NCBI RefSeq assembly: GCF_030263935.1
Contig: NZ_CP127162.1
Coordinates: 2,613,501 to 2,677,500, forward strand
Reading direction: 5' to 3'
Origin: Paenibacillus polygoni
GTDB lineage: Bacteria > Bacillota > Bacilli > Paenibacillales > Paenibacillaceae
DNA length: 64,000 nt
The notes below the pieces were generated by a model. The model was not told the DNA's origin. It saw only the letters and a program-made list of their open reading frames with translations, and did not search any database. Positions 8,300 through 29,891 of the stretch are shown piece after piece; the first letter of the stretch is position 1, and each line of letters starts with the position of its first letter. Made by a program: the position numbers and the translations under genes.

Positions 8300-11200
8300 C
8301 TAGAACAGCCCTGATTTTTTCATCAGTTCATGAATCAATTTAGCTGCTTCAGCACGGGTGATATACGCCTTAGGCGCTAGATTCGATGAACTTCTTCCGG
8401 AGACGATACCTGCCTGCAAGCTATCTGCCACACCTGATTTGGCCCAGCTTGAGACGCGGTTTGCATCTTCATAACTGCTTAGCATCTCTTCCACTGATCG
8501 TTCTGTCAAACTTCTCTTCAGCTCAGTAATTTCCATCGCTTGAGAGGCAATGTGCATGGCTTGTTCCCTTGTAATCTTCTCATAAGGCCGGAAAGTGTTG
8601 TCTTCGTACCCAGTGATCAGGCCGTATGTTTGCGCCGTTTTCACATGTTCAGCGAACCAATCCGTAGTCTTTACATCCGTTAATGTAAGTTCTCCTTGCT
8701 CTGAACGAAGTCCAAGCGCCCGCACAAGCAGTGCAGTAAATTCGGCACGAGTGATTTCCGTATTTGGAAGGAATAAACCGCTTCCCGTTCCATCAATAAT
8801 CATCCGAGATCCGAGATTGTTGACGCTGTCCTGTGCCCAGTGCGAGGTCAGATCAGTAAATGTTACGGAGTTCGTAACCACTGCATAGGTGCCGCCAGTC
8901 AAGCTGCGAATTTTTGCGTAACGTTTCCCGTTCTCTGTAACGATTTGAGTCGGCACCTGATAAACTGTACCTTTTGATTCGATCAAAGCACCAGTAGATA
9001 CCTGGTTAGCTGATGAATTATCCGAAAGTGGAATCATTCTCTCCACATATCCAGTAAATGGAGTGATATCTGTAACGTTATTTCCTTGTACTGCTCTAAC
9101 ATTGAAGTCAAGCAGATCCGAGCTAAGCTTAAAGCCTTTTACCTTGGCTACCTGTTCTGCAACCTTGCTCATCGATGAATCTGGAACAGCAATCTCAATT
9201 TGAATCGTCGTTTCCGTGCTTGTTCCATCGCCTGCTGACGGCAAAGAATTCGTACTAATTTTGGAAGCTGGAACCTTGAAAATCCCTAGACCCGTCCATA
9301 GTTCCAATATGATTTTCTTATCCTGAAGGGCTTTTAGAATATTCTTATTAAATTGAGTAATTACATGCTCCGAGTCTGCCTTAACTGTAACGGCAATCAC
9401 ATCGCCTTCCTTCGCTGTTGAAAGCCAAGTTTCCAGCTTCTTCTGATCAAATGCTATTGTCGTAATTTTCTTGTTTTGCTGGGTTGTCGTGCCGATCGTA
9501 CCCAAGTCCACTTCTTTGTCGCCAACTTTTATTTCTGCATCTTTCTTACCGACAGGTAAGGTCTGCTGTGGTGCCGCTGGAGTCAAAGGTCTATCGGGTG
9601 GAGCTGGTGTGGAAGGGGCTGGGTTTGGAACAGACGGCGTACCGCTTCCTTCGTCTTCGGTGCTTACCTTAATTGTAATATGAGTAGTAATCTCTTTGCC
9701 GCCAGCAGTAACGGTTAAAGTCAACGTACCATTGCCAGCTGAGATTCCTTTTACATTTACCGTCTCTTTATCACTGTCACCTGTAATCTCAAGATTATTA
9801 AATGCTTCCCAGCGGTATGTTGGATTTGTCGCATTGACTGGATTTAGCTGAGAATCAAACGTAAGTGAATTGTTCACTTTAACAGATGTAGCTTCTCCTA
9901 TAATGGAGACAGACTCCAGAGGAATCACTTCCGGTTCGATCTCATTCTTCGTAAACTGCCAGTAATCCATTCGAAGAGAATCTTGACCTTTTGTCTTAAA
10001 CATAAAGAAGATATTGTGAACACCGGTAACCGGTTTGACGTCTGTCTTCAGCGTTTTCCACTGATTTGCGCCACCCGTAGGCGTCACATCAAACGTACCA
10101 ATGACATCACCGACTGGACTGTCCTGTCGTATTTCAATCGTTCCCCCAGCAGTTGCTGCTACGCTGGCTTCAAAAATACTTGGTCCACTCGTACCGAAGT
10201 CTGCGTTTGCAACAGCAAGCCAATCTCCATCATTGACATCGGTTATATTGAGGTTGATGCTCTCCACCATGTTACCAGGCTGCAAGGATTTCTCCGTCAT
10301 CATCCCGGACTGCCATGCCATCGTTTCTGCCTCGGTGCGCTGGTATGGATTTAGAACAGCTAACTGTTCCACTCCTTCCATATCACCCTTGATCGGTTTA
10401 ATAAATCCGTTCTCATAAAACTCCACTTTATTGATGTGTGTAGAGCGATATCCTTTCGCTTTATTCATCGCCTTAGCAAGGGTTTGAGCGTGATAAGCAA
10501 CATACCACTGATCTTTAAATTCGAAAATGGCATGATGATTGTTCCCACCGACATCGAAAAAGACGTTTGGATTCTGCAAAATGGTTCCGACGTAAGTAAA
10601 TGGCCCCATCGGATCATCGCTGACCATGTATGCAATTTCTCCTTTCGGCGGAGAACCTTCCGGATGGGTACCGGCGAAATTAGAACAGTAAGAATAATAG
10701 TACTTACCGTTATATTTGTGAATTCCGGAATCCTCAAAAAGATAAGGAGCATCAATGAGTTTTGCTGATCCTACTGTGCTTATCATATCGTCACCCAATT
10801 GAATTACTCTGCCGCTCTTCGGATGAGCAATTTGCTCTTCTGTCGGATTATTTCCGCCAGGGATTCCCCCGCCAAAATACAGATAACCTGTTCCATCATC
10901 ATCCACCAGAACAGCCGGGTCAAACATCCACACTACCCCGTTTGTTCCTGGTACACTGCTGTTAATAAATGATTTCCCCAGTGGATCCGTCCACGGCCCG
11001 ATTGGACTATCGGCAGTAAGGACACCAATGCTGGAAGCATTATTAGCAAAGTACAAGAAAAATTTATCCTTTCCTTCAATTACCTTATGAGCAATCGCAG
11101 GCGCCCAAGAGTTATTCGCCCATTTGGCAGCACCATTCGGGCCTGCTACGGGAATCTCTCCATGATCGGTCCAGTTCACCATATCCTCTGATGAGATGAC

Positions 11201-14200
11201 AGTGATTGTATTGATCTTGGAATAACTATTATCTTTCAAATTCCCATTTGCGTCATATTCAAATGCATCACTTGTCATATAAACATATACTCTGTCGTTA
11301 AAGACAAGCGCATAGGGATCTGCGCCAAACTTATGGCTGATTAGCGGGTTCGCATATCCAGGTACTTTAGCAAGAGCTTTCGTGTCCAATGCCTTCAAAT
11401 CAATAGCAGAAACTGCTTCACTCACGTTATAAACTACATTGCTGCCTTCTGTTTTGATATAATCCGTACGAATTTTTACTGTTTGATCCTTCGGAACAAA
11501 ATCTTTCATTTTCAGTTGAATCGTAGCGAACAGATCAGATGAGGTATTCGTAAAATTCACGTTACTGCCGGAAACCTTCAGTTCCAGTCTGCGGTCAGCA
11601 AATGAGTAAGATGGTGTACCACTAATATTGTCTGTATGAAATGATACTCCGGTTACGGATACAAAATCCGGAATATCGAAGGAAGCAGAGATTCCATTAT
11701 AAGTTCCGTCAGGCAATGCCTCCATTTTTACCGGAACTTCGAATTCTACATTTGGAACGCCTAGAACGTCCGAGACATCATCCAGACTTGCAGAAAGAAT
11801 AGGAGCTGACTCCCCTGTTCCAGTCATCTTGTTGTCTACTCTAAAATAATCGAAGTCGACGTATCCGCCTACCGTTTTGGTCGCGTAATTAAATAAGGCA
11901 TAACGATAACCCATAAAATGAGGCAGGGTATACGACATTTGCAGCTGCTCTCCAATTGCTGTCCAACTTACCCCGTCAAGACTGTAATAAAAATAAGCTT
12001 TGTCTGTTTGCTTTTTAAAATCCATATCAATTTTCAGATAAACTCGATCCGCAGCAAGCGGGATGCTGGCAACTTCTTTCGGTTGTTCGCCGCTGCCATT
12101 AACCATTACGATCGATTTTGCGGTTCCTGACTTTTTAACACCGACATAACCATAATTTTTTTGGAAAGCGGCAAGACCCGCTACATCTCCGTCTTTCATA
12201 TGATCAGTTTCAATAGCAATATAACCTGAACTTTCAGGTCCAAACGTTCTTTGTGTAAGTGTATTGCGTGCATCTAGAATTCCTGTGCTTTTTCTGCCCG
12301 TTGTTAGACGTAAGAATCCAGAACGCTGGGTCAGCGACCAGTTGTTATTATCTGGATTATGATTCCACTGCCACGAAAGCCCTAGATTGGAGCCATTACC
12401 TTCACTCTCTCCTGGCTTTTGTGTATCTGGAATGGGAGCAGAGGAAGCTGTAAACGAGATGTCGTCAACATAGAAGTCCATTAGATCTGTGATAGGATCC
12501 GGAGTTCCGGTCCATGGTGTCTCAATGAAAATAAAAGTATGGGATAAATCCGCATCGGAAGGGAGTGTATATGTGCCTCGGAGTGTTCCCCATTCCCCTT
12601 TCTTCATCGTAGCCGAACCAAGCACCTTGATTCCTTGCCAGCTCGGTCCGTTCTGGATGTTGAAGTTGAACTGTTTCTGCTCCGGCCCTTCATCGTACCT
12701 TACCTTCGCAGAGAAGGTATAAGTGACATTAGTATCCACCTTTCCGGTAATCAACTGCATCGGCCCGTCTCCCGTTGCCTTGCGTCCGGTCGTCTTCAGT
12801 GCTGATATACCGCTGTAATATACATCATTTGAAACAGATACCGATGCTGCTCCATTAGCAGTCCAAGGCTCGATACCGCTTTCAATATCGCTGTTGATAA
12901 TTAGCTCTGAGACGGAAGTATCTGCAAAAGAAATGTCATCGACATAGAAGTCCATCAGATCTGTGTTTTGATCAGGCGTGGCGGTCCATGGTGTCTCAAT
13001 AAAAATAAAGGTATGAGATAAATCGGCATCCGCAGGAAGCGTGTACGTACCTTGGACCGTTCCCCACTCACCTTTGTTGATCACAGCCGAACCAAGCACC
13101 TTAATTCCTTGCCAGCTTGGACCGTTCTGTATGTTGAAATTGAACTGTTTCTGGTCTGGCCCTTCATCGTACCTTACCTTGGCAGAGAAGGTATAGGTGA
13201 CATTGGTATTTACTTTCCCCGTTATTACCTGCATTGGACCATCTCCGGTCGCTGTCCGCCCCGTCGTTTTCAGAGCAGATGCGCCGCTGCCATAAACATC
13301 ATTCGTAACGGATACGGAGGCTGTGCCGTTTCCAGTCCAAGGTTCAACACCACTCTCGATTCCACCGTTAACTAACAGTTCCCTCCCTGATCTCTCAGCG
13401 GCTGCAAGCATATCCGTTTCAAAGAGTTCTGAAGATACATCTGGTGCGTTGCTGTCTTCAGAAGTATATGGGAGACCTGATCGTGCTGAGCGATTATAGA
13501 ATTCATCAGAACTTACAATATTGGATTCCCCATTATGTAATGGAAGAGAAATTTCAGCTGGGACTTTGCCATTGACACCAAATACCGGCCAGTCATTCTC
13601 CCATGTGACGGGAACTAAGTATGGAATACGCCCGACGGAACCACGGTCACCGAACAAAAAGGCATACCAATCTCCTGAAACCGTATCGATCAGCCCGCCT
13701 TGTGCAATCCCCTGATCCTGCAATACGACTTTCCCTTCATAAGGGCCGTCTATGGTGTCAGAGCGGAACACCAATTGTGTTCGCATGCCGCCGCTCGGCC
13801 AAGTGATTAGTGAAATATAATATTTCCCATTCACTTTTTGGATATGAGCACCTTCCGCTTGAAGTCCCACATTTGGTCCTGCAATTAAACTCGAATCCTT
13901 AATAATGATTTTATTCATTCCATCTTCTTTCACCGCAGTGGCGTCCGAATTTAGCTCAACAATCCGAATATCACCGCCTCCATGTACAAGGTACACTCGT
14001 CCATCGTCATCGAATAGAAGGGACATATCGTGATAGAAAGGAAGCTCCGAGTGTGTCCAAGGTCCATTTTCGATATCCGTTGTTTGATAAATATAAGTCT
14101 TTCCTGCTGTACTGGAAGAAAACACTACATAATACTTACCGTCATGGTACCTGAGACTGCTAGCCCAAGAACCTTTTCCATACTCATTTTTATTATTACT

Positions 14201-14500
14201 CAATCTCTGATGATCGGTCTCGTCCAGAATATCATATACATAATTGACAATATCCCAGTGTACGAGGTCATACGATTTCATAATTGGAACGCCTGGGTTC
14301 ATGTGCATTGTCGTACTGGTCATATAATAGGCATCACCCACACGAATGACATCGGGATCAGGCACGTCAGCCCAAATAATCGGGTTATTCGCAATTCCCA
14401 GTTCTTTGGGGATTTCCTCTGCAAATGTGAGCCCAGCCGGCATCAAATTCAGAAATAAGGCGGCTGTTGTAAGAATCGAAATTAGCTTCTTTTTCCCCAC
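8300..14500 (-). CDS. S-layer-anchored modular arabinoxylan hydrolase with two GH43 domains
   Basis: Secreted enzyme of 2066 residues. Order of parts: signal peptide (1-27); GH43 domain A (about 36-320, ADVPDPD base region, Glu216 in LQAEGAH as likely acid); two nearly identical CBM4/9-like modules (about 374-527 and 532-684); a GH43-associated beta-sandwich (about 705-890); a cohesin-like domain (about 900-1030); GH43 domain B (about 1046-1375, Asp1061, Asp1194, Glu1256); CBM6 (about 1388-1518); an Ig-like domain (about 1525-1613); a Pro-rich linker; an unassigned domain (about 1650-1875); and three SLH repeats (about 1880-2060). Domain B plus CBM6 closely resembles Bacillus subtilis XynD, an arabinoxylan arabinofuranohydrolase. 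Domain A resembles GH43 beta-xylosidases or arabinofuranosidases. GTG start with AAAGGAGA upstream. It should act at the cell surface, releasing arabinose and xylose from xylan. Confidence 0.95.
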   Translation of the reverse strand: MGKKKLISILTTAALFLNLMPAGLTFAEEIPKELGIANNPIIWADVPDPDVIRVGDAYYMTSTTMHMNPGVPIMKSYDLVHWDIVNYVYDILDETDHQRLSNNKNEYGKGSWASSLRYHDGKYYVVFSSSTAGKTYIYQTTDIENGPWTHSELPFYHDMSLLFDDDGRVYLVHGGGDIRIVELNSDATAVKEDGMNKIIIKDSSLIAGPNVGLQAEGAHIQKVNGKYYISLITWPSGGMRTQLVFRSDTIDGPYEGKVVLQDQGIAQGGLIDTVSGDWYAFLFGDRGSVGRIPYLVPVTWENDWPVFGVNGKVPAEISLPLHNGESNIVSSDEFYNRSARSGLPYTSEDSNAPDVSSELFETDMLAAAERSGRELLVNGGIESGVEPWTGNGTASVSVTNDVYGSGASALKTTGRTATGDGPMQVITGKVNTNVTYTFSAKVRYDEGPDQKQFNFNIQNGPSWQGIKVLGSAVINKGEWGTVQGTYTLPADADLSHTFIFIETPWTATPDQNTDLMDFYVDDISFADTSVSELIINSDIESGIEPWTANGAASVSVSNDVYYSGISALKTTGRKATGDGPMQLITGKVDTNVTYTFSAKVRYDEGPEQKQFNFNIQNGPSWQGIKVLGSATMKKGEWGTLRGTYTLPSDADLSHTFIFIETPWTGTPDPITDLMDFYVDDISFTASSAPIPDTQKPGESEGNGSNLGLSWQWNHNPDNNNWSLTQRSGFLRLTTGRKSTGILDARNTLTQRTFGPESSGYIAIETDHMKDGDVAGLAAFQKNYGYVGVKKSGTAKSIVMVNGSGEQPKEVASIPLAADRVYLKIDMDFKKQTDKAYFYYSLDGVSWTAIGEQLQMSYTLPHFMGYRYALFNYATKTVGGYVDFDYFRVDNKMTGTGESAPILSASLDDVSDVLGVPNVEFEVPVKMEALPDGTYNGISASFDIPDFVSVTGVSFHTDNISGTPSYSFADRRLELKVSGSNVNFTNTSSDLFATIQLKMKDFVPKDQTVKIRTDYIKTEGSNVVYNVSEAVSAIDLKALDTKALAKVPGYANPLISHKFGADPYALVFNDRVYVYMTSDAFEYDANGNLKDNSYSKINTITVISSEDMVNWTDHGEIPVAGPNGAAKWANNSWAPAIAHKVIEGKDKFFLYFANNASSIGVLTADSPIGPWTDPLGKSFINSSVPGTNGVVWMFDPAVLVDDDGTGYLYFGGGIPGGNNPTEEQIAHPKSGRVIQLGDDMISTVGSAKLIDAPYLFEDSGIHKYNGKYYYSYCSNFAGTHPEGSPPKGEIAYMVSDDPMGPFTYVGTILQNPNVFFDVGGNNHHAIFEFKDQWYVAYHAQTLAKAMNKAKGYRSTHINKVEFYENGFIKPIKGDMEGVEQLAVLNPYQRTEAETMAWQSGMMTEKSLQPGNMVESINLNITDVNDGDWLAVANADFGTSGPSIFEASVAATAGGTIEIRQDSPVGDVIGTFDVTPTGGANQWKTLKTDVKPVTGVHNIFFMFKTKGQDSLRMDYWQFTKNEIEPEVIPLESVSIIGEATSVKVNNSLTFDSQLNPVNATNPTYRWEAFNNLEITGDSDKETVNVKGISAGNGTLTLTVTAGGKEITTHITIKVSTEDEGSGTPSVPNPAPSTPAPPDRPLTPAAPQQTLPVGKKDAEIKVGDKEVDLGTIGTTTQQNKKITTIAFDQKKLETWLSTAKEGDVIAVTVKADSEHVITQFNKNILKALQDKKIILELWTGLGIFKVPASKISTNSLPSAGDGTSTETTIQIEIAVPDSSMSKVAEQVAKVKGFKLSSDLLDFNVRAVQGNNVTDITPFTGYVERMIPLSDNSSANQVSTGALIESKGTVYQVPTQIVTENGKRYAKIRSLTGGTYAVVTNSVTFTDLTSHWAQDSVNNLGSRMIIDGTGSGLFLPNTEITRAEFTALLVRALGLRSEQGELTLTDVKTTDWFAEHVKTAQTYGLITGYEDNTFRPYEKITREQAMHIASQAMEITELKRSLTERSVEEMLSSYEDANRVSSWAKSGVADSLQAGIVSGRSSSNLAPKAYITRAEAAKLIHELMKKSGLF
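12430..13376 (-). repeat. Tandem duplication encoding two CBM4/9-like modules
   Basis: The two halves (about 13376-12905 and 12904-12430) encode about 157 residues each and differ at only a minority of positions; both contain the blocks TNVTYTFSAKVRYDEGP and KQFNFNIQNGPSWQG. This is a direct in-frame duplication inside the GH43 gene. The modules probably increase binding to xylan or a related glucan. Confidence 0.9.
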
Positions 14501-14727: not shown

Positions 14728-16434
14728 TCAGGATTTAATGGTAGTTACGCTAGTCCCCTCTTTCTCAATGATGTACTCTATCATTTCGCCGCTCCAAAAA
14801 TGAAATTTCAAAGTCACTTTCCCATCTTTGATTTCATCAAAGAAAGCTTTCGTTAATTTGATCTCATTTGTCTCATAGGATGGAATGAATGAGTGCCCGA
14901 ATTCTTTGAACGAAGTCCAATCCGCCGGCCCTGCATTTTGTCCATTCTCATACAGCGATTCCATCGTAGCCAGCTCATCTCCATTGAATTGGACTGGAAT
15001 GATCAGCTCATCTGAAGATCCAGACGCCTCACTTAGCTCAGGTACATCGCAGGTAATTATGTTAAGTTTCCAATCAGCCCCTGAATTAAAAACGATACGA
15101 AGCTCTGCTTGCTTTCCATAAGCAGTATCAGACCACTGACCAAGGAAGTAGGCTTTTAGCGTGAGCATGTTCTCATGAATAGTGTAATCTTGGCCCTTTA
15201 TTAGTGTCTTTCCGTTCATAATGACATTTCGAAATTCGTTCCCGTTAAGCTCAAGAGGAATGGATACGTCCTGTACATTCTCCCCCTTCTTCAAATAGAC
15301 AAAATCAGACATCGCATGGGAAGAACGACCTTTGAAACCAGCTTGGATAACAGCATACAAATCTTCATCAAACCATTGGAACTCCCTGCGATTAAAGTGT
15401 TGGCCGTTATCCCACAGCATCGTGGTAAATCCTTTTTGAGTGGCATAATCATTTACAAAATCAAAATATTTCAGTTTCTCTCCCTGCTGGATCGTCCCCA
15501 AAAACTTGTCAAATCCGAGTAACCCGAACTCCCCCACAATGACCGGAATCCCTTCCTTCGTAAACCGCTCATATGTCCGATCAAACGTATCCATGATATC
15601 TTTCTTAGCAGCTTCATCAAACCGAGTTGCTCCTGCCATATTGACACTAAAAGGATAAAATCCGTAATAATGAATGGTCGCAATTAGATTCGGATCGTTA
15701 TAACTGGTTATTGTCTTGTAGAGTTCCTCTAATCTGACTTCGGAAGCAGAGGTCGTTATACTAGGTATAACTAGCGGGCGTTTTTCATTTTCCCCTCCAG
15801 AAGTCCGTACGATGTCATGAAAAGAATCATTCAATTCACCAAGCATGGTAAAATACTCAGGTTCATCTTTATTCCAATCCTCTGAGAATCGAGGTTCATT
15901 TATACTCTCAAACATGAGCTTGCCTGGATGATCTTTGAAATGATCCGCTATTTGTGTCCACAAGGCACTGTATCGCTCTAATACTTCATCATGATTCGTA
16001 TCCATGTACCTCACCCATTCGCTGGAGTCGTGATGGATATTAATCATGACATACAGTCCTTCATCCAGTGACCAATCTACAACTTCCTCAATTCTTCTCA
16101 TAAAATCCGGATCCACCGTATAGTCAGGAGCATCGCCCATACGGTGCTGCCAAGTGATTGGAATACGGATACTGTTGTACCCTTGTTCCGCAATCTTGGC
16201 AATCAACTCTTTGGTGGTGCGTGGGTTACCCCAAGATGTTTCATCACCTGTCGCATCAAACGTATTTCCGAGGTTCCATCCTGGCTGCATTTTTTCTACA
16301 TATGTTTGCATTTTACTTTTCTTCTCCTTCTGCTTTTCAGCTGAAATGAGGGGACCCACTACAAAAAGAACACCTGCTATTAAAACCAAAGACATCAGCA
16401 TTGCCCATAAAGGAAAACTCTTTTTATTATTCAT
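14728..16434 (-). CDS. GH5 endoglucanase/xyloglucanase with X2 and CBM46-like modules
   Basis: Beta-1,4-glucanase of 568 residues. An N-terminal hydrophobic segment (about 9-31) without an obvious cleavage site suggests membrane anchoring or secretion. The GH5 domain spans about residues 42-370 with INIHHD (132-136), acid/base Glu180 in MFESINEP and nucleophile Glu302 in VIVGEFG. After it come an X2/Ig-like module (about 378-465) and a CBM46-like module (about 470-560, ending FHFWSGEMIEYIIEKEG). This three-part layout matches Bacillus halodurans Cel5B, a GH5_4 enzyme active on xyloglucan and mixed-linkage glucan. AAAGGA precedes the ATG. A cre-like site lies upstream, and the double-GH43 gene is next downstream with its own leader. 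Confidence 0.9.
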   Translation of the reverse strand: MNNKKSFPLWAMLMSLVLIAGVLFVVGPLISAEKQKEKKSKMQTYVEKMQPGWNLGNTFDATGDETSWGNPRTTKELIAKIAEQGYNSIRIPITWQHRMGDAPDYTVDPDFMRRIEEVVDWSLDEGLYVMINIHHDSSEWVRYMDTNHDEVLERYSALWTQIADHFKDHPGKLMFESINEPRFSEDWNKDEPEYFTMLGELNDSFHDIVRTSGGENEKRPLVIPSITTSASEVRLEELYKTITSYNDPNLIATIHYYGFYPFSVNMAGATRFDEAAKKDIMDTFDRTYERFTKEGIPVIVGEFGLLGFDKFLGTIQQGEKLKYFDFVNDYATQKGFTTMLWDNGQHFNRREFQWFDEDLYAVIQAGFKGRSSHAMSDFVYLKKGENVQDVSIPLELNGNEFRNVIMNGKTLIKGQDYTIHENMLTLKAYFLGQWSDTAYGKQAELRIVFNSGADWKLNIITCDVPELSEASGSSDELIIPVQFNGDELATMESLYENGQNAGPADWTSFKEFGHSFIPSYETNEIKLTKAFFDEIKDGKVTLKFHFWSGEMIEYIIEKEGTSVTTIKS

Positions 16435-19642: not shown

Positions 19643-19800
19643 CAATAGACACCTTTTTCTTGTATTTATCGATCTATTATAAGCATGATAAAGCTAATAT
19701 TTCAATACAAATGGAACATAAGCATGTTTCAAATACCACATGATAAAAGCAGGAAGCTGCTCTTTTATCATAAAAGAGTGCTCCCTGCACATTATCATTC

Positions 19801-20964
19801 TTACTTATTATATTTAACATTAGGTCTTTTATCTTTATGAAGCGCTTTTTCAATAAAGTTATCATCTACATTTAAATGCTCTTTTAATAGGGAAGATGGG
19901 GTTTGAGACATCCACTGATTAAGAGACACATCTGCGAAATGGTCGCTTCTGAACATCTCTAGGAATCTAAGAGGTTTATCACCGGTATTTTGTATATAGT
20001 GACCCATCGCAAACGGCACATAGCCTACATCACCAGCCTGGTAATCATAAGTGCGCGCTTTTCCTCCTGAAGCGAATACCGTCATTCGTCCTTGTCCTTC
20101 AAGATAATACTGCCACTCATCATCGTTAGGATGCCAGTGTAATTCTCTAATCCCTCCAGGCTCAACTTCAACCAATGCCGCAGCAACGGTAGTAGAGACT
20201 TTAAAATTGTTGGAATCCGCGATCCAAACTTTCCCACCGCAAGTTTCTACCGGCTTTTGATTCATTAGCTTAAAGCTGAAGGACTCTTGTACAGCTTCAT
20301 TGACTTCCTTAGGCAGTTCATTGACAATGGGACCGGGCACTTCGCCTTGGTACATATATACTTCTTTTTCTGGTATTTTATCAAAAGATTCTTCACATAT
20401 ACCAAAGTTAGCGGCCAGGATTTCTTTTGGAGTGTGAGCCATCCAGTCTGTAAGGGAGAATGTACTGTTTTCAGAGAAACTTCCATCATCAAAAACAAGA
20501 ATGAACTCAACTCCTTCGCTTAGTCCTTTAATTGAGTGAGGAATACCTGAAGGGAAATACCATAGATCGCCTTCCTCTACATCATCAACAAATATGTTAC
20601 CGTCAGGATTAATAGCAGTAATTCTTGCTGAGCCTTTAATTATAAAGGACCATTCTGCTTCCTTATGCCAATGAAGCTCCCTTACACCACCTGGCTCCAA
20701 ATGCATATTCACACCGGCAATTTTTTTAGATGCCGGCATTTCACGAATTGTAACTTCACGTGACCAGCCTCCATGCTCAACTCGCATATGAGAATCAGCA
20801 TAAGAATATTTCAAGTTCGGCATCGTACCGTTATCTGTATCTGGTGGAACGAGAATATCAGGGTTTTGTAAATCTCTTTCAATATTGCGTGCTCCCCAAA
20901 TGTCGCCACCTTTGTCTCCTTTTTTCGGCTGAGGGATGTTTCCATTCATTGTTTTATTCATCAT
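19801..20964 (-). CDS. oxdC: Oxalate decarboxylase, bicupin, manganese-dependent
   Basis: Converts oxalate to formate and CO2. It has two cupin domains, each with a metal site: His98, His100, Glu104 and His143 in the first (RELHWHKEAEW and FPSGIPHSI), and RELHWHPNDDEW with PFAMGHYIQ in the second. The lid loop SENST (Glu165) is the feature that distinguishes decarboxylase from oxidase activity. The 387-residue length and sequence follow Bacillus subtilis OxdC. There is no signal peptide, so it acts in the cytoplasm. It is the third gene of a unit with the gamma-glutamyltransferase-fold enzyme 47 bases upstream and an NCS2-type permease, which may supply its oxalate. AGGTGAT precedes the ATG pair at 20964/20961. 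Confidence 0.95.
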   Translation of the reverse strand: MMNKTMNGNIPQPKKGDKGGDIWGARNIERDLQNPDILVPPDTDNGTMPNLKYSYADSHMRVEHGGWSREVTIREMPASKKIAGVNMHLEPGGVRELHWHKEAEWSFIIKGSARITAINPDGNIFVDDVEEGDLWYFPSGIPHSIKGLSEGVEFILVFDDGSFSENSTFSLTDWMAHTPKEILAANFGICEESFDKIPEKEVYMYQGEVPGPIVNELPKEVNEAVQESFSFKLMNQKPVETCGGKVWIADSNNFKVSTTVAAALVEVEPGGIRELHWHPNDDEWQYYLEGQGRMTVFASGGKARTYDYQAGDVGYVPFAMGHYIQNTGDKPLRFLEMFRSDHFADVSLNQWMSQTPSSLLKEHLNVDDNFIEKALHKDKRPNVKYNK

Positions 20965-21011
20965 AAAAAGATCACCTATCCTTTTTTTGATTTTTAATAC
21001 TTTGAAATGTA

Positions 21012-22643
21012 CTAGTCGCCAGTCGCCAGTCCATTTGCTCTCGGATCAGCACCTGCTTCTAAATGATCAGGCCAAATCCGTATCGCTTGAGCATGTCCCA
21101 TCAAATCGCTAAAATTCTCAATAATTTCTACATTATCGTGGCCTAGTTCACGTAATTTCTCAGCTAATTTATGATTATATCGACCTTCAAGCCGAAGACC
21201 TCGCACGTGATCTCCCCACGTCCGCCCTAGAAGCCATCGGGGCGCATCAATAGCTTCCTGAACTGTATAACCTTGATCAATGACCCTCATCGTAATAAGT
21301 GCTTGAGTTTGCGGTTCTCCGTCACCGCCCATGGCACCTAGAACCATCTCAGGCTTGTCGTCCTTCATAACCATCGAGCAGGTTAATGTATGCGCTGGGC
21401 GTTTATTTGGCTCAAGGTTATCACGTGAATTCGAATTTAAAGAGAAATGAGTTCCACGGTTCTGGAGAAGAATGCCAGTATCGCCCGCCACAAGACCTGA
21501 ACCCCATTCCCAATAAAGGCTCTGAATGACACCAACTGCATTTCCATCCTTATCCACCGCACAGCTAAAAGTCGTATCACCCTTTTTCCCCATTCCTTGT
21601 TCAGGTGGTCCTAAGGAAGGGTCATATAAACGTTTAACTCGATCCTTGAGATATTCTTTGCTGAGTAAGGTATCCATAGGAATATGATTAAAGTCTGGAT
21701 CGTCTAAGTAAGTATCCCGATCAATAAAAGAAAAAGCTGTGGCACGAGTAAAAGCGTCGATAAACTTGGCCTCATCCTTTGCCAGCTCCTTGATATCCAG
21801 CTGTTCCATCATCCCAAGAATCTGCAAGGTTACGAACCCTGCTGAGTTGGGTGGTGGAGCAATTACCTTTCGATCTCGGTAACCAATCTGTAAGGGTTCA
21901 TTCCAATCTGCTTTATGATTAGCAAAGTCTTCTTTTGTTAAGAAGCCTCCTTGTTCTTGTAAGAAACTGCAGATTTGCTCCGCTATCTCACCTTTATAAA
22001 AGGCATCTGCACCATCTTCAGCAATTAGCTCAAGCGTCCTTGCTAAGTTCGGATTGTTCATAATATCTCCTGACACAAATGGGGCAACCCCATTCTTTAA
22101 GAAGGTTTGAGCCGTTGTAGGATATGTTCTAAGCAGATCGAGAGCAAATTCAGAAAATCTGGCCACAGAGTCCTCTACAGGAAATCCGTTTTTTGCATAG
22201 TCGATTGCAGGCTCTAGACACTTGGCAAGAGATACCTTTCCAAACCTCTGATGGGCTTCAATCCAGCCACTAACGGCTCCAGGGACGGTAATAGCTGCCT
22301 TTGGGCCTCTTATATCAATCCCCTCATTCTTCGAGTATTCTGTGATAGAGACCTTAGACCCAGACCTTCCCGATGCATTTAATGAATGTGTTTTTCCGGT
22401 TTTCGCATCATAGATCAACCAGAATGAATCTCCACCAGCACCGGTCATATGCGGGAAAACAACGCTCAACACGCTGTTAGCCGCAACCATAGCATCCACT
22501 GCACTGCCACCTTCATTTAGTATACGGTTAGCGGCCATGGACGCTAAATTGCTCGGTGTCGCTACTGCTGACTTTCTTGCAATGTAAGATCTTCCATAAC
22601 GAGGATCAATTTCACGTCCTACCATGTAAGATTTATTATCCAT
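21012..22643 (-). CDS. Cytoplasmic gamma-glutamyltransferase-family amidohydrolase (YwrD/HpxW-like)
   Basis: Ntn-hydrolase of the gamma-glutamyltranspeptidase fold, 543 residues, expected to self-cleave before the nucleophile Thr357 in GDTTFSCAVDKDGNAVG. Other family marks are GGSAVDAMVAAN, TGAGGDSFWLI and GAMGGDGEPQTQ. It lacks a signal peptide, unlike secreted glutathione-degrading GGTs. Relatives include Bacillus subtilis YwrD and Klebsiella HpxW, an oxamate amidohydrolase that makes oxalate and ammonia. The oxalate decarboxylase gene starts 47 bases downstream, which favours an oxamate- or oxalurate-type substrate. That assignment is inferred from context. GGGAAGGTGAG precedes the ATG. 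Confidence 0.88.
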   Translation of the reverse strand: MDNKSYMVGREIDPRYGRSYIARKSAVATPSNLASMAANRILNEGGSAVDAMVAANSVLSVVFPHMTGAGGDSFWLIYDAKTGKTHSLNASGRSGSKVSITEYSKNEGIDIRGPKAAITVPGAVSGWIEAHQRFGKVSLAKCLEPAIDYAKNGFPVEDSVARFSEFALDLLRTYPTTAQTFLKNGVAPFVSGDIMNNPNLARTLELIAEDGADAFYKGEIAEQICSFLQEQGGFLTKEDFANHKADWNEPLQIGYRDRKVIAPPPNSAGFVTLQILGMMEQLDIKELAKDEAKFIDAFTRATAFSFIDRDTYLDDPDFNHIPMDTLLSKEYLKDRVKRLYDPSLGPPEQGMGKKGDTTFSCAVDKDGNAVGVIQSLYWEWGSGLVAGDTGILLQNRGTHFSLNSNSRDNLEPNKRPAHTLTCSMVMKDDKPEMVLGAMGGDGEPQTQALITMRVIDQGYTVQEAIDAPRWLLGRTWGDHVRGLRLEGRYNHKLAEKLRELGHDNVEIIENFSDLMGHAQAIRIWPDHLEAGADPRANGLATGD

Positions 22644-22717
22644 CTGCTCACCTTCCCTAAATTAGAGTTGCTTCTTCAGTGGGCTAGAAGCACTAATTAG
22701 TCCTTTAACCAATTCAT

Positions 22718-24046
22718 TTATTCTAAAACTTTTTTATCCATTTTTTCCTGGATACGATCCCAATTCATAATATTTTCCAAAATTAAGGACAGAGTGATTC
22801 CTACAAGAAGACCATTACTAATAAAAGGCTGAATAAAACTAGGAAAAGAAGAGAAGTATTCGCTTGGGAGTGTCATAACGACAACAGCCAAAAATATAGG
22901 AACCGCACACCGGTATATATTTCGTTTATTTAATGGCACTTTTTCGAAAAATTCAAAGGACGATAATAACAGCTGTAAATAAGATACAAACAAAACTGTG
23001 CTGCCTACACTTAAGGGGATATCCGAGAAGAAATGAGCCACAGGCGGAATGACACCCATAAGTAAAAATAGGAAACCTCCAATAATAAACGGCAGCCGAT
23101 TTATAATTCCTGCTTGCTTCAAAAAGCCAATGGAGGATACGAAAGGTGCATACGGAACAAGTCCGAGCACACCACTGATCGCAGTGAAGAACCCAGAAAT
23201 CATTAAACTAGCACGATATTGTTTCTTGCTTGTTTCTTTTTTATATAACCCTTCTGTTCCCTTCAATGCACCAAAAGTATTTGCTAAATTTAATATTCCT
23301 GTAATGACAGCTACAATGATAATTCCGACATTCCAGGCTGGATTACCAAGTGAGAACCATTCAAAATGAAATGAGGCACTATTCTTAATCGTCTCTTCTT
23401 CTCCCAAAAAAATACTGTAAACACCCCACCCAACAACAATCCCTAACAGAAGTGAATACTTACTAATCTTGCTCGGCATCATTACATTCACAATGATGAT
23501 CAAGAGCATCATGATCATAGATATAAGTGAAATATTTAGATCTATACGAGCATGATCCGGAGCATTTCCCATTGGAATACCTAGCATCCCCTTGAGGAAG
23601 ATTTGAATGAGCTGAAATCCAAAGATCATCATAAACACGCCCATCACAGCCGGTTTGAATAATCTGGAAAGCAAAGAGCCTAATCCAAATACACCTGTTA
23701 ACACGGTTAATAACGCAGAAATCAATACTCCGACGGTTAAACTCCCACCTAATTCTGCTAACGAAATCCCTTGGGAAGTGGCGATGCTAACTGTAGTTAG
23801 AATCATTCCCCACCATAAACCAGATTGACCCTCGAGGATCGCACGCTTATGTCCCCAAAAAGCTTGGGCTATACATGCTGCACCCGTTACTACAAAAGAA
23901 TATTGTAAAGTGGTCATGATGGTATTATCTGATAAGTCAAAGGCCTTACCAATGGTTAGTGGGATAATCACGATATTCGCAAAAATAAAAAAAAACCATT
24001 GAAACCCAGCTAACCAGTTTTCTGATTTTTGAAGATCTTTAAACAT
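22718..24046 (-). CDS. NCS2-type permease with atypical substrate-site motifs
   Basis: Integral membrane transporter of 442 residues with about 12-14 hydrophobic segments, resembling uracil/xanthine permeases: GQSGLWWGMIL, FKPAVMGVFMMIFGFQLIQ and FTAISGVLGLVPYAP. Where the E. coli uracil permease UraA has the substrate-binding glutamates (EHIGH and TTYGENIG regions), this protein appears to have NLAN and APFVSSIG, so a classical nucleobase may not be the substrate. The ATG at 24046 is preferred because GAGGAGGAG lies about 5 bases upstream; the ATG at 24061 is at the edge of that site. First gene of the unit with the GGT-fold enzyme and oxalate decarboxylase. A strong inverted repeat lies in its leader. 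Confidence 0.85.
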   Translation of the reverse strand: MFKDLQKSENWLAGFQWFFFIFANIVIIPLTIGKAFDLSDNTIMTTLQYSFVVTGAACIAQAFWGHKRAILEGQSGLWWGMILTTVSIATSQGISLAELGGSLTVGVLISALLTVLTGVFGLGSLLSRLFKPAVMGVFMMIFGFQLIQIFLKGMLGIPMGNAPDHARIDLNISLISMIMMLLIIIVNVMMPSKISKYSLLLGIVVGWGVYSIFLGEEETIKNSASFHFEWFSLGNPAWNVGIIIVAVITGILNLANTFGALKGTEGLYKKETSKKQYRASLMISGFFTAISGVLGLVPYAPFVSSIGFLKQAGIINRLPFIIGGFLFLLMGVIPPVAHFFSDIPLSVGSTVLFVSYLQLLLSSFEFFEKVPLNKRNIYRCAVPIFLAVVVMTLPSEYFSSFPSFIQPFISNGLLVGITLSLILENIMNWDRIQEKMDKKVLE

Positions 24047-24084
24047 TATTCTCCTCCTCATGTGATCCGGCTGAAATAAGAATA

Positions 24085-24109
24085 AAACGTTGTCTTAAAG
24101 ACAACGTTT
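24085..24109. promoter_or_regulatory. Inverted repeat in the leader of the permease-oxdC operon
   Basis: Two 12-base arms (24085-24096 AAACGTTGTCTT and 24098-24109 AAGACAACGTTT) form a near-perfect palindrome about 40 bases upstream of the permease start. It could be a dimeric repressor operator, or an attenuator, since TTTTATTCTTATTT follows on the minus strand. Confidence 0.6.
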
Positions 24110-25734: not shown

Positions 25735-26841
25735 TTAATCCATTTTATTTTTATTCAAAGCAAGACTTTCTAAGATTGAATTCCTTGAAACATTAATGTA
25801 CTCTAGCTGCTTCATCCGTTGAAGAAAAGCAGGTTCCTCATCTATCATACAACTTACGATATGTAGAGATCTAAGACACCTAAGTTTCTCTAACTCGATT
25901 GGTAGTTCATAAATCGAAGTATAGTTGATCGTAAGCTGCTCCAAGTGCTCAAGTTCTCCAATCTCAGGGGGGATACGATGCAAACTGATCTCTTCCTTTG
26001 ATTTCATCCGCCAAGTGGAATCCGGTCTATCTGAACTAGCACAACTGATTTGCAGTTCTTTTAGTTTTTTTAATTTACCAATGGATTCCGGAATGCTTTC
26101 AAGGTCTGCTGTCATAATTTTCAAACTTTCTAACTTACTTAACTCGAATAACGCCTCAGGTAGTTGATAAAGATCTTGTTCGAATATTTCTAGCCATCGC
26201 AACTCTGTAAGTTCGCGGATTCGATCTGGCAGTTTCTTCAGTCTATATCCACTTATATAGAGCCGATCTGTTTTTTGCTTAATAGCATCATCCAGCAGAC
26301 GATTGAAGTCCCGATGTGCCTTTATTTCTATGAAAAGTCCTGTAATTTGATCCATCAGCTCAACTGCCTCATTCTCTGTCACATTAATCCCGTACATACG
26401 CTCATGAACAACGGAATAAAGATAGTCTTCGCCATCTTTTGTTAAGAAGCACAAATCTTCTGGTAGGTTGGGGAAAATCCAATCCGAAAGGCTTCCTGCA
26501 AATTTCTTTAAGAGGAGACCGCTTTCTTCACATGATTTATAAAAATAGTAGGTTCCCGAGCAATAAAAAGCATGGCTGCGATATGCTTCTCTCATTTCTG
26601 TTATTTTCTCCATTTGATTGTCAGGGATTACGATGGTCTTCATTAAATATGGTTTTAATTCTTCCAGTACGTTTTGATACCTTTGATTCTCTCTAGGTAA
26701 ATCCCCCATTTTGTAACCAAACACAAAACATTCTGAATTTTCTATTGCTAAATCTATCACTTGCTTATAAGCTTCCCCTTTAGGGTCTGTATACATTCTT
26801 AACATACTCGTCCTCCCCCTGTAGAAATACTCTTTATACAT
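25735..26841 (-). CDS. Leucine-rich-repeat protein coupled to the SF1 helicase
   Basis: Soluble 368-residue protein. The first roughly 190 residues form an unassigned domain (VFGYKMGDLPRENQRYQNVL, CSGTYYFYKSCEESGLLLKKFAGSLSDW has the same block in two parts), and the C-terminal half consists of about six leucine-rich repeats of the type L..LP..I..L..L..L.I (for example LKKLPDRIRELTELRWLEI). LRRs mediate protein binding. The ATG at 26841 shares one base with the helicase stop codon (TAATG), so the two are translationally coupled and probably act together. I do not know a function; a recognition or regulatory subunit is an inference. Confidence 0.75.
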   Translation of the reverse strand: MYKEYFYRGRTSMLRMYTDPKGEAYKQVIDLAIENSECFVFGYKMGDLPRENQRYQNVLEELKPYLMKTIVIPDNQMEKITEMREAYRSHAFYCSGTYYFYKSCEESGLLLKKFAGSLSDWIFPNLPEDLCFLTKDGEDYLYSVVHERMYGINVTENEAVELMDQITGLFIEIKAHRDFNRLLDDAIKQKTDRLYISGYRLKKLPDRIRELTELRWLEIFEQDLYQLPEALFELSKLESLKIMTADLESIPESIGKLKKLKELQISCASSDRPDSTWRMKSKEEISLHRIPPEIGELEHLEQLTINYTSIYELPIELEKLRCLRSLHIVSCMIDEEPAFLQRMKQLEYINVSRNSILESLALNKNKMD

Positions 26842-29800
26842 TATTGAGCGTTTACCGCCAAACCACTACCGCTTTTGACTTCATCTACGTTTTCTACAAT
26901 AGAAGAATAATAAGGTTTCTTAGAAAATCGCTGATAATCACCAATTACATAAAACTCTTTTTTAGCGCGCGTCACAGCTACATTTAATAGATTAGGCTTT
27001 GAACATGACCAGTTTGCTGCTCCATCACTGTTCTCGTCGGTTCCCGTTACTAAATAAACAAGATCTGCTTCTTTTCCTTGAAAGGTATGGACCGTCCCTA
27101 CAGAATTCCTCAACCAATCATTTAATACTTCTTTAGAAATCCCTAATTTCTTTAATTTCACTCTTAGAATTCTTTTAATACCATCCTTAACTGCCGTAAA
27201 GGGAGAAATGATATATACATTCGGAGGACCCGCGTTTTTCTTCCATAGTGTAATTATATGGTCTGCCACCAATTCACCTTGTTCTTCTACGAATTGACGA
27301 TTATTAGCTGATCCTTTACAGTCATACCAGATACTTTTGCCCCGGCCCTCTTTACCCAATACCATTTTGTTATCATAAGCTATTTCGTTTGCAACAGTGA
27401 ACATAGGATTTAAGCATCTTCTATGCACCCATAAGGGTATGCCGATCCACTGACCATTACTGCTCGTCAGTCCATATCGATTAGCTGTATCTGCTATCGT
27501 TTGAACGGAGGAACCCATTCCAATATATCTCTCACTTACATTAAAATATTTCTTGATATCCCCTAAAATGGTTTGATCTAAGGTGATGACCGGCTCAATT
27601 TGAATTGGGTCACCAACTACTACTACATTTTTAGATCTCCATATTGCACCCGCCGATTGTTGTGGACTCGCTTGTCCTGCCTCATCTATAAATAAATAAT
27701 GGATAAAATCTTTTTCTATTCCCTTATACATCGAACTAAAACTTGCAAAAGTTGTACTTACCAAAGGAGTAATTAAATGAACCGTTTGCCACATATTCTT
27801 CAAGTATTCTCTATGTTCCTCATTGTTAAGATCTAGATTTGCACGATTGATCAATAAGCGTAAAGTTGATTTAATGGCATTATAATTGAAGGCCAACATC
27901 ATTTTATGGATTTTCATAGCCTTTAAAAACAGCAATCCTCTTTCGAAATTCAGTTCATCTGTCAGCCAAATCGTATTTAATTGCCGAAATTCATATGCTT
28001 GTTGTGTGTTCGACCAATAATCTTCATCCGGTAATATTAACCCCTGCTTTTTATAATCATCCAGCTGTTTTGCAAAAGCAGATTCTCTTTCTTTGAGTTC
28101 TTCTATCCTCTTTTTAGATTTTTCGACCTCGGCCTTTTTTATATAAAACTTGTTTCCTTCTTCTTTTAACCGAGTAATTATATCGTAGAGTTCATTATCT
28201 AATTCTATTTTTTTCGTATTCTTTTTACCTAAGACTCTTTGTAAAAGAGAAAGCTTTGGCAACGATTGAATTTGTTGTTCAGTGAGCTGCTTTTGCTGTT
28301 CTAAATGGAATTTCTCGCTCCCAAGATCCATTAGTTGTTGATTAAGTTCAGGGTATTGTTCCTCTAACTCTCTTAATAGGACAATAGAAGATTTCATACT
28401 CTTATATTCGTCGTGAAATTTCTGGAGACTCTCCTTCTTATTCTTCACTGAGTTAAGCGTATCTTCGAATTCTTTTACAGCATTCTCCCAGGACTTCGTG
28501 TCTACCTGTTTACTGTCTTGTTCCAGCTGTTGTAGAAAATCGGTTCCATCCTCTTTCTTCCTAAACAAACTCCAAGCATATGCTGATATATTATCTGATT
28601 TGCCAAGAGCTCCCGAAAATAATCCCCATGCCTCATCGTTACTGCCTAGCAAATCCATTGCCGCAACTTTATACATAGATAAATCCTCGGCCTCTACAGC
28701 GTACGACTCTTCATAATGATTGAACTTACTTTTATCCGAAGAAGAACGTATAACTTCATTTCGTTTAGGTAGATCCTTAGAGATATTTTCAACTGCTCCA
28801 TTATTACTTGAAGCCACTACCATAGAATACTCCGTAATACTTGAATCCAATAAATAGATGGGATAAAACCTACCATTTAAATTAATTGACTTTACTTTTG
28901 TAAAAGCTTGGGACGGGGTTTCCAATTGCGCTATTTTTTCAGCTCTTTGAACTACAATGTCAGCAAAGATGTCTTTAAATAAAGTGGTCTTTCCTGTGCC
29001 AGGCGGTCCATTCACCGAACTTATTTTTTGATTACTATTAATAATTTGATTTACAGCAACTTGCTGCATTAAAGATAGTCTATGTTCTACGGGAGATGGC
29101 CACCGGCCATGGGGTAAATGGATGGGCTGTAAAATATCTTCGATATATTCCTGATTTTCATCTATATCTAAGCGGTGTTCAATAGCTACTCCTTCTACAA
29201 ACTGACGAAGCGCTTCATTTTCTCCTTTCTTTATAATGAGTTCCAAGTCACTTATATAGAAACTGTTAAAATTCTTTTGATTAGAAATTCGGCCAACTTT
29301 CATCACTTCAATCTCTACATATTGTAATGAATTATCCTCGAATCTATGGAAAAATTGCTCAAATTCTTGTTGAATTAAGAGGATGGCTTCCTCAGTTACT
29401 CCATTCATAAAAATGGTTTGTGCTTGTTCTTCGAATAATTTCAATTTACTTTGAAAAGGAGTTAACAGATCCTCATATTTCAGCTCAGAATTTTTTGCTA
29501 GAAACTGTATTACATACATCAAAAATGGAACAAATATGGACTCTTTTATATAATTGCCTTGATCATCAACCAAAAAAGAAAAACTAAACAATGTTTTATG
29601 ATCCTTATTTACAATCTCATCCTGATTCATAAAAGCTTCCCGTATAAAGCTGACCAGCTTGTGGTGCTCAAAACAACCTAGATAATAGCGGAATTGAATC
29701 TGATATTCATGATTCTTTACCAGGTCCTTCTTCCACGGAGTTTCACTAAGATTAATGAACCGTGTGCGGTTCCGATTTTTATTGTCTGTGAAATAACTTT

Positions 29801-29891
29801 TATTCACCGTTTCTCCCTTACCAGGCACTTCACTTGGGACCAACGCTTCGACTAAGTGCCAAGTCTTTAATACTCGTTTGGTAATTTCCAT
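26841..29891 (-). CDS. Large SF1 (Upf1/DNA2-like) helicase
   Basis: ATP-dependent helicase of 1016 residues. An unassigned N-terminal region (about 1-260) is followed by motif I NGPPGTGKTT (294-303), motif II LFIDEAGQ (733-740), motif III VVGDPIQIEP (759-768), motif IV-like LWVHRRC, motif V VGTVHTFQGKEAD and motif VI NVAVTRAKKEF near the end. Between motifs Ia and II lies a 250-residue insertion rich in coiled coil (about 465-615), as in DNA2/Upf1 relatives. It has no nuclease domain that I can see. GAGGAG precedes the ATG. It is co-translated with the leucine-rich-repeat protein downstream. Phage defence or RNA/DNA repair are both possible; the sequence alone does not decide. Confidence 0.88.
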   Translation of the reverse strand: MEITKRVLKTWHLVEALVPSEVPGKGETVNKSYFTDNKNRNRTRFINLSETPWKKDLVKNHEYQIQFRYYLGCFEHHKLVSFIREAFMNQDEIVNKDHKTLFSFSFLVDDQGNYIKESIFVPFLMYVIQFLAKNSELKYEDLLTPFQSKLKLFEEQAQTIFMNGVTEEAILLIQQEFEQFFHRFEDNSLQYVEIEVMKVGRISNQKNFNSFYISDLELIIKKGENEALRQFVEGVAIEHRLDIDENQEYIEDILQPIHLPHGRWPSPVEHRLSLMQQVAVNQIINSNQKISSVNGPPGTGKTTLFKDIFADIVVQRAEKIAQLETPSQAFTKVKSINLNGRFYPIYLLDSSITEYSMVVASSNNGAVENISKDLPKRNEVIRSSSDKSKFNHYEESYAVEAEDLSMYKVAAMDLLGSNDEAWGLFSGALGKSDNISAYAWSLFRKKEDGTDFLQQLEQDSKQVDTKSWENAVKEFEDTLNSVKNKKESLQKFHDEYKSMKSSIVLLRELEEQYPELNQQLMDLGSEKFHLEQQKQLTEQQIQSLPKLSLLQRVLGKKNTKKIELDNELYDIITRLKEEGNKFYIKKAEVEKSKKRIEELKERESAFAKQLDDYKKQGLILPDEDYWSNTQQAYEFRQLNTIWLTDELNFERGLLFLKAMKIHKMMLAFNYNAIKSTLRLLINRANLDLNNEEHREYLKNMWQTVHLITPLVSTTFASFSSMYKGIEKDFIHYLFIDEAGQASPQQSAGAIWRSKNVVVVGDPIQIEPVITLDQTILGDIKKYFNVSERYIGMGSSVQTIADTANRYGLTSSNGQWIGIPLWVHRRCLNPMFTVANEIAYDNKMVLGKEGRGKSIWYDCKGSANNRQFVEEQGELVADHIITLWKKNAGPPNVYIISPFTAVKDGIKRILRVKLKKLGISKEVLNDWLRNSVGTVHTFQGKEADLVYLVTGTDENSDGAANWSCSKPNLLNVAVTRAKKEFYVIGDYQRFSKKPYYSSIVENVDEVKSGSGLAVNAQ

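Follow-up and report, generated by a model that had tools for sequence, protein, structure and literature searches.

A probable oxamate-to-formate operon in Paenibacillus polygoni combines an HpxW-type hydrolase with oxalate decarboxylase and a YbbY-type permease

The 64,000-nucleotide stretch of Paenibacillus polygoni DNA analyzed here (contig NZ_CP127162.1, positions 2,613,501 to 2,677,500; hereafter the window) is part of a single-contig genome of 4.94 Mb (G000) and carries three minus-strand genes in the order NCS2 permease, hydrolase of the gamma-glutamyltransferase (GGT) fold, and bicupin oxalate decarboxylase (OxdC). The operon is probably a self-contained oxamate route, in which oxamate, which arises in purine breakdown, would be taken up and hydrolyzed to oxalate and ammonia, and the oxalate decarboxylated to formate and CO2. 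What is new is the joining of a known type of oxamate hydrolase to OxdC and a YbbY-type permease in a three-gene arrangement, of which no description was found in the openly licensed literature as judged by titles and the beginnings of abstracts. A link between HpxW and Bacillus subtilis YwrD had already been proposed: Danchin 2016 (PMC5270733) describes YwrD as very similar to HpxW and as co-evolving with most xanthine-degradation enzymes. An earlier note on this DNA, which held that YwrD-like proteins have no settled function, had overlooked this proposal.

The three open reading frames (24061-22718, 22643-21012 and 20964-19801) are separated by gaps of 74 and 47 bases. Their spacing and their Pfam and NCBIfam matches agree with the earlier note, which had described three tightly spaced genes for an NCS2 permease, a GGT-fold enzyme and OxdC. 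Features and coordinates are collected in Table 1.

The hydrolase matches G_glu_transpept (PF01019) at 477 bits. Its N-terminus, read from the sequence and not with a signal-peptide program, is hydrophilic and has no hydrophobic stretch, so no signal peptide is evident. Residue 357 is a threonine that aligns with the residue we take to be the nucleophile of E. coli GGT; the description of a signal-less enzyme with Thr357 therefore stands. Compared with solved structures by sequence, the predicted catalytic subunit scored highest with 5hft chain B (177 bits), followed by 2nlz (92), 2i3o (87) and E. coli GGT (69), and the stretch from Thr357 onward matched chain B from its fourth residue (residues 4-186). 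With both subunits included, the chains of 5hft scored 192 and 174 bits, whereas 2nlz reached 298 and E. coli GGT 243. Entry 5hft bears the title Crystal structure of HpxW, and its sequence is near-identical to that of the Klebsiella product from locus L039. Hicks and Ealick 2016, a paper cited in PMC5270733, reportedly showed that HpxW hydrolyzes oxamate.

Two motifs, GR(T/N/S)W(G/D) and GG(D/E)G(Q/E)PQ(T/S), occur in all 60 HpxW-type sequences, HpxW among them, in none of eight other GGT-fold paralogues, and not in E. coli GGT. The 60 sequences were picked by similarity to the window protein, and the eight controls are GGT-fold paralogues from related genomes. A third motif, QNRG, does not discriminate, as it is present in six of the eight controls. 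In a control tree the eight fell outside the 60 HpxW-type sequences, with low support for the split (0.093). Similar to Klebsiella HpxW, the window protein has the GGT fold, the Thr nucleophile, the GG(D/E)GxPQT and GRTWG motifs and QNRG, and HpxW is its nearest solved structure by sequence. It is ~40% identical to HpxW, however, and lies in a separate clade of the tree, HpxW and L038 being placed in another branch with nine other sequences. Around the nucleophile the window clade reads GDTTFSCAVD and HpxW reads GDTVWMGVVD. Judged by the tree, which also holds actinobacterial relatives (P0035, P0068, P0089 and others), the hydrolase is a relative of HpxW, of HpxW type, and not its orthologue. 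The surroundings differ as well. In the Klebsiella hpxWXYZ cluster, hpxX, an AtzE-type amidase gene and hpxZ lie downstream of hpxW, whereas the window has no adjacent amidase gene and has the permease and OxdC genes instead. In the annotated Klebsiella record L035, genes for hpxX, the AtzE-family amidase and hpxZ come after a frameshifted copy of hpxW that lacks an annotation; at L039 the copy is intact and is followed by the AtzE-family amidase as in L035.

The hydrolase could instead be a cytoplasmic gamma-glutamyltransferase or glutathione hydrolase, its adjacency to oxdC reflecting a shared stress response and not a pathway. It passes the NCBIfam equivalog TIGR00066 for gamma-glutamyltransferase (439.4 bits, cut-off 357.85), and its named relatives are mostly called gamma-glutamyltransferase by their sources, among the best 120 of 1572 matches. 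The structural model (mean predicted local distance difference test score 89.2) has a GGT-like fold that appears to match true GGTs as well as HpxW. Its best fold matches are the single-chain 2nlz, 2i3o and GGT precursors, and HpxW as the nearest fold was not supported, ranking 28 by VIA-align (chain A) and 48 by Foldseek; HpxW was solved as two chains. On the other side, the E. coli GGT residues that we take to hold the glutamate (R114, S462, S463 and D433) are not conserved in the alignment, where HT replaces the SS pair and other residues stand at the Arg and Asp positions. HpxW outscores E. coli GGT in the comparison with the catalytic subunit (177 against 69 bits), and a glutathione enzyme would leave unexplained the linkage to oxamate-forming genes described below. 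We consider this explanation very unlikely. TIGR00066 accepts the window hydrolase and its paralogue in the puc-type operon of the host, but not HpxW, suggesting that automatic names within this subfamily may be wrong.

The decarboxylase matches the bicupin_oxalic model TIGR03404 at 571 bits (cut-off 254) and, similar to B. subtilis OxdC, aligns with the solved structure of that type at 562 bits over 377 residues (8-384). The window protein keeps the SENST lid and, in each of its cupin domains, the His/Glu motifs of the metal site; this motif check covered five of the seven OxdC proteins found next to such hydrolases (own, L004, L043, L044 and L053). A SENS(T) lid marks decarboxylase rather than oxidase activity. 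Conversion of oxalate to formate and CO2 is the well-established function of the family to which the sequence assigns this protein. Unlike the B. subtilis gene, the window oxdC closes an operon that also encodes a hydrolase and a permease. Each of six genomes (G000, G533, G389, G620, G1013 and G1014) holds exactly one protein over the TIGR03404 cut-off, and in all six it adjoins the hydrolase.

We found hydrolases of the window type in seven distinct genomes: the P. polygoni genome itself, Paenibacillus sp. UNC499MF (L003, G1013), P. pini (L004, G1014; sampled again as G1135 and counted once), G1144, G533, G389 and G620. The hydrolases of the last three group with Mammaliicoccus and Staphylococcus proteins, and we call these genomes Staphylococcaceae-like. 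The hydrolase and oxdC are adjacent in all seven (own, L003, L004, L072, L043, L044 and L053), and a permease precedes the pair at four of the six readable loci (own, L003, L072 and L043), the upstream region in G620 being cut by a contig end 210 bases from the pair. Conservation of gene order, which the earlier note had proposed to check, therefore holds for the hydrolase-oxdC pair in two families of the genome collection, and its repetition in other genomes makes the arrangement more than chance.

The gene itself is rare. It was found in 3 of 394 Paenibacillaceae genomes (E <= 1e-180), in 3 of 108 genomes in the sample of the G533 family (E <= 1e-100), in 4 of 398 in the class sample (E <= 1e-150, a count that includes the excluded G385) and in 1 of 398, the P. 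polygoni genome, in the phylum sample. These samples from class, phylum, family and Staphylococcaceae-like genomes share members and are thus not independent, and in some of them only the three top candidates of each genome were scored. Of 197 Paenibacillaceae genomes sampled earlier, 144 had some match, the best apart from P. polygoni being 47% identical. G385 (49% identity) was left out of the adjacency count as its protein lies in another tree branch and has a signal-like N-terminus; no OxdC or permease was present among the open reading frames read near that gene. Despite the rarity, base composition lends no support to recent transfer, the operon having 41.4% GC and the window 41.0%.

The genomic setting in the Staphylococcaceae-like genomes connects the pair to oxamate. 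Searches for uricase, allantoinase and AllG covered the six genomes other than G1144, and AllG was found in 3/3 Staphylococcaceae-like and 0/3 Paenibacillus genomes. In G533, ~5.5 kilobases (kb) separate oxdC from a PucR-type regulator, which is followed by genes for a permease of allantoin type (51% identical to AllW), allantoinase, an allantoate amidohydrolase that is 53% identical to AllC, ureidoglycine aminohydrolase, two ureidoglycolate dehydrogenases, AllF, AllG and AllH, and lastly by a carbamate kinase gene that starts 23 kb from oxdC. The span from AllB to carbamate kinase lies 9-24 kb from the pair. In G389 the pair is differently arranged, the corresponding span lies at 7-18 kb (AllB at 7 kb, AllF at 14 kb), and the AllW-type gene and one AllD-type gene are in broken pieces. 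Linkage is readable in G533 and G389; in G620, AllG lies on another contig than the pair. Among the G533 proteins, AllE, one AllD and the carbamate kinase score above the NCBI equivalog cut-offs and AllF above that of the FdrA subfamily, and AllH of both G533 and G389 matches a Pfam family named as an oxamate carbamoyltransferase subunit.

In E. coli, AllFGH reportedly converts oxalurate to carbamoyl phosphate and oxamate, and PMC12535856 and PMC11326118 describe oxamate as a dead-end byproduct. In a wild-type E. coli culture, 19.5 mM allantoin consumed gave 17.7 mM oxamate and 2.4 mM oxalate (PMC11326118). Similar to the E. coli allantoin regulon (AllD, AllFGH, AllK and YbbY), the system studied here has a YbbY-type permease, and allantoin (all) genes lie near the pair in two Staphylococcaceae-like relatives. 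Whereas the E. coli pathway ends at oxamate, the window operon would carry oxamate on. An HpxW-type hydrolase beside OxdC fits the missing continuation of the oxamate branch in the Staphylococcaceae-like genomes.

The proposed route would begin with oxamate uptake by the YbbY-type permease. By homology and gene context, the hydrolase would cleave itself at Thr357 and then convert oxamate and water to oxalate and ammonia, and OxdC, by its family function, would convert oxalate to formate and CO2. The net effect would be nitrogen gained and oxalate removed. In the Staphylococcaceae-like relatives, hydrolase and OxdC would extend the branch beyond oxamate, its end point in E. coli. The conversion of oxamate to oxalate and on to formate and CO2, as the earlier note had suggested, is supported by conserved gene order, by HpxW as the nearest solved structure by sequence, and by oxamate-synthesis genes nearby in two genomes; it gains nothing from the fold comparison, which does not appear to prefer HpxW. 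The adjacency of OxdC shows only that oxalate is a likely product, and the residues around the nucleophile differ from those of HpxW, so that the substrate might be a different oxalyl amide (oxalurate or an N-oxalyl amino compound, for example), from which the hydrolase would release oxalate directly for removal by OxdC. Against this, AllFGH in the Staphylococcaceae-like genomes should already handle oxalurate, yielding oxamate, and HpxW, the nearest relative of solved structure, is reportedly an oxamate enzyme. We regard another oxalyl amide as distinctly unlikely.

Genes of related type were seen in other settings. In Paraburkholderia, a gene annotated hpxW precedes one annotated as an oxalate/formate antiporter. 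On plasmids of Paracoccus (L036) and Rubrobacter (L037), an L-lactate permease gene neighbors a GGT-fold gene of this subfamily, with one small gene between the two in Rubrobacter; these may be oxamate loci too, since oxamate is an analogue of lactate and pyruvate.

Another HpxW-type hydrolase of P. polygoni is encoded in an operon that also holds the genes for uricase, allantoinase and a PucR regulator. This puc-type purine operon (L046:640-16834; G000:C1:3133639-3149833) has the HpxW-type gene between those of an amidohydrolase and a class-V-type aminotransferase; uricase, allantoinase and PucR were confirmed by search, and the other genes were named by eye. The aminotransferase gene directly adjoins that of the second hydrolase, and we take its product to be PucG, although its NCBIfam aminotransferase matches are all below cut-off. 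An AtzE/GatA-type amidase gene lies within ~1.5 kb of 13 of the 22 Paenibacillaceae loci in the branch of the paralogue, which recalls hpxW and hpxY of Klebsiella. The puc-operon gene may supply the oxamate step that is missing in Bacilli. By the published proposal (PMC5270733), YwrD would be a GGT-fold protein of the same kind as the window protein; in function, the puc paralogue may come closer to it.

Uricase was found in one of the six genomes searched, that of P. polygoni, and allantoinase over cut-off in four. G1013 and G1014, both Paenibacillus genomes with the pair, have no uricase, no AllG and no over-cut-off allantoinase, and the P. polygoni genome has no match to AllG or to AllD-type proteins. 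The import of a purine-derived ureide, which the earlier note had offered as an alternative to oxamate uptake, is not needed. Because a second HpxW-type enzyme sits in the uricase operon of P. polygoni, purine-derived oxamate would probably be handled by that paralogue, and an external supply of oxamate is the more likely role for the window operon to serve.

The permease matches Xan_ur_permease and the PRK11412 uracil/xanthine transporter model (NF008502; 511 bits, cut-off 370). Its true start is probably the in-frame ATG at 24046, since the ATG at 24061 overlaps an AGGAGG ribosome-binding sequence, and alignment with YbbY agrees with this start. In an alignment of nine permeases it shares 42.5% identity with E. 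coli YbbY, against 23% with UacT. An Asn and a Ser are common to YbbY and three of the operon permeases (own, L003 and L043) at positions where XanQ and UraA have Glu and Gln/Glu, residues to which we presume functional roles in those transporters. By this alignment the permease belongs to the YbbY cluster of NCS2. In E. coli, Salmonella and Klebsiella records, ybbY lies between allB and glxK, with fdrA close by.

We propose that the permease imports oxamate or a related small oxo-acid amide. Alternatively, it may import purine bases, and the operon would then be the distal part of a whole-purine catabolism whose puc operon lies elsewhere on the chromosome. Membership in NCS2, the uricase-containing puc-type operon of the host, and unpublished evidence, mentioned in PMC6308229, for the transport of adenine, guanine and hypoxanthine by E. 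coli YbbY agree with this alternative. However, G1013 and G1014 have the pair, one of them with the permease, and lack uricase and over-cut-off allantoinase; the puc-type operon of the host has its own HpxW-type gene; and ybbY sits among allantoin genes in the enterobacterial records. Purine-base import by this permease is possible but in our judgment unlikely. An extension of the proposed oxamate import, which we offer tentatively and hold to be no more probable, is that YbbY-type permeases of this group carry oxamate or oxalurate and not bases, for import in Paenibacillus and for export in E. coli, so that the operon would be a complete oxamate-to-formate pathway feeding on the allantoin waste of others.

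Several observations weigh against the oxamate route. The unpublished purine-base evidence for YbbY mentioned in PMC6308229 counts against an oxamate carrier. No permease precedes the pair at L004 and L044, two of the six readable loci. The genes also occur apart, which speaks against a fixed link between them: YbbY-like genes lie away from allantoin and hydrolase genes in a Priestia plasmid and in Paenibacillus cellulosilyticus, and a Paenibacillus polymyxa plasmid has OxdC with neither partner nearby. The comparison of the modeled fold, which does not appear to prefer HpxW over true GGTs, lowered our confidence in the route very slightly. Should the route hold, these loci would point to bacteria that carry oxamate, the dead end of anaerobic allantoin breakdown in E. 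coli, on to ammonia, oxalate and formate, and would tie oxalate decarboxylase to purine nitrogen salvage. They suggest a testable function for proteins that databases call gamma-glutamyltransferase, and a concrete substrate hypothesis for YbbY, a permease with no settled role.

Table 1. Positions of the operon genes and associated elements in the window
Feature	Positions	Strand	Basis
YbbY-type NCS2 permease, 442 aa	22718..24046	-	NF008502/PRK11412 511 bits (cut-off 370); longest open reading frame from 24061
GGT-fold Ntn hydrolase, HpxW type, 543 aa	21012..22643	-	PF01019 477 bits; 5hft_B 177 bits; model pLDDT 89
Thr357 codon, predicted self-cleavage site and N-terminal nucleophile	21573..21575	-	aligned to first Thr of E. 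coli GGT QTT
Oxalate decarboxylase OxdC, 387 aa	19801..20964	-	TIGR03404 571 bits; OxdC structure 562 bits
Hairpin terminator 3' of oxdC	19735..19805	-	-28.4 kcal/mol, z = -5.4, 0/200 shuffles equal
Perfect 25-base palindrome, 12-base arms, directly 5' of permease	24085..24109	-	terminator-like match; folding z = -3.4 (66 bases), 1/200 shuffles as good

The operon looks like a closed three-gene unit, since a strong hairpin follows oxdC and the downstream gene, which encodes an ABC-F protein, has a separate promoter-like site that matches 11 of 12 consensus bases. Promoter-like matches overall were at chance level (13 found, 12.2 expected in shuffled sequence). The palindrome upstream of the permease could be an attenuator, an operator or the terminator of the preceding gene; the surrounding 66 bases fold with z = -3.4, and 1 of 200 shuffles was as good. 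A conserved regulatory palindrome was rejected, as none was present in the five other upstream regions examined, the L053 region being cut by the contig end.

Elsewhere in the window, the minus strand at 26841-29891 encodes a 1016-aa SF1 helicase-like protein that matches the MkoC defence model at 226 bits. A leucine-rich-repeat gene (25735-26841, minus strand) overlaps it by one base and has no defence match itself; the two are possibly a defence pair. At 8300-14500 the minus strand encodes a 2066-aa secreted protein with, by eye, glycoside hydrolase and S-layer-type repeats, and a cellulase-like gene at 14728-16434 adjoins it.

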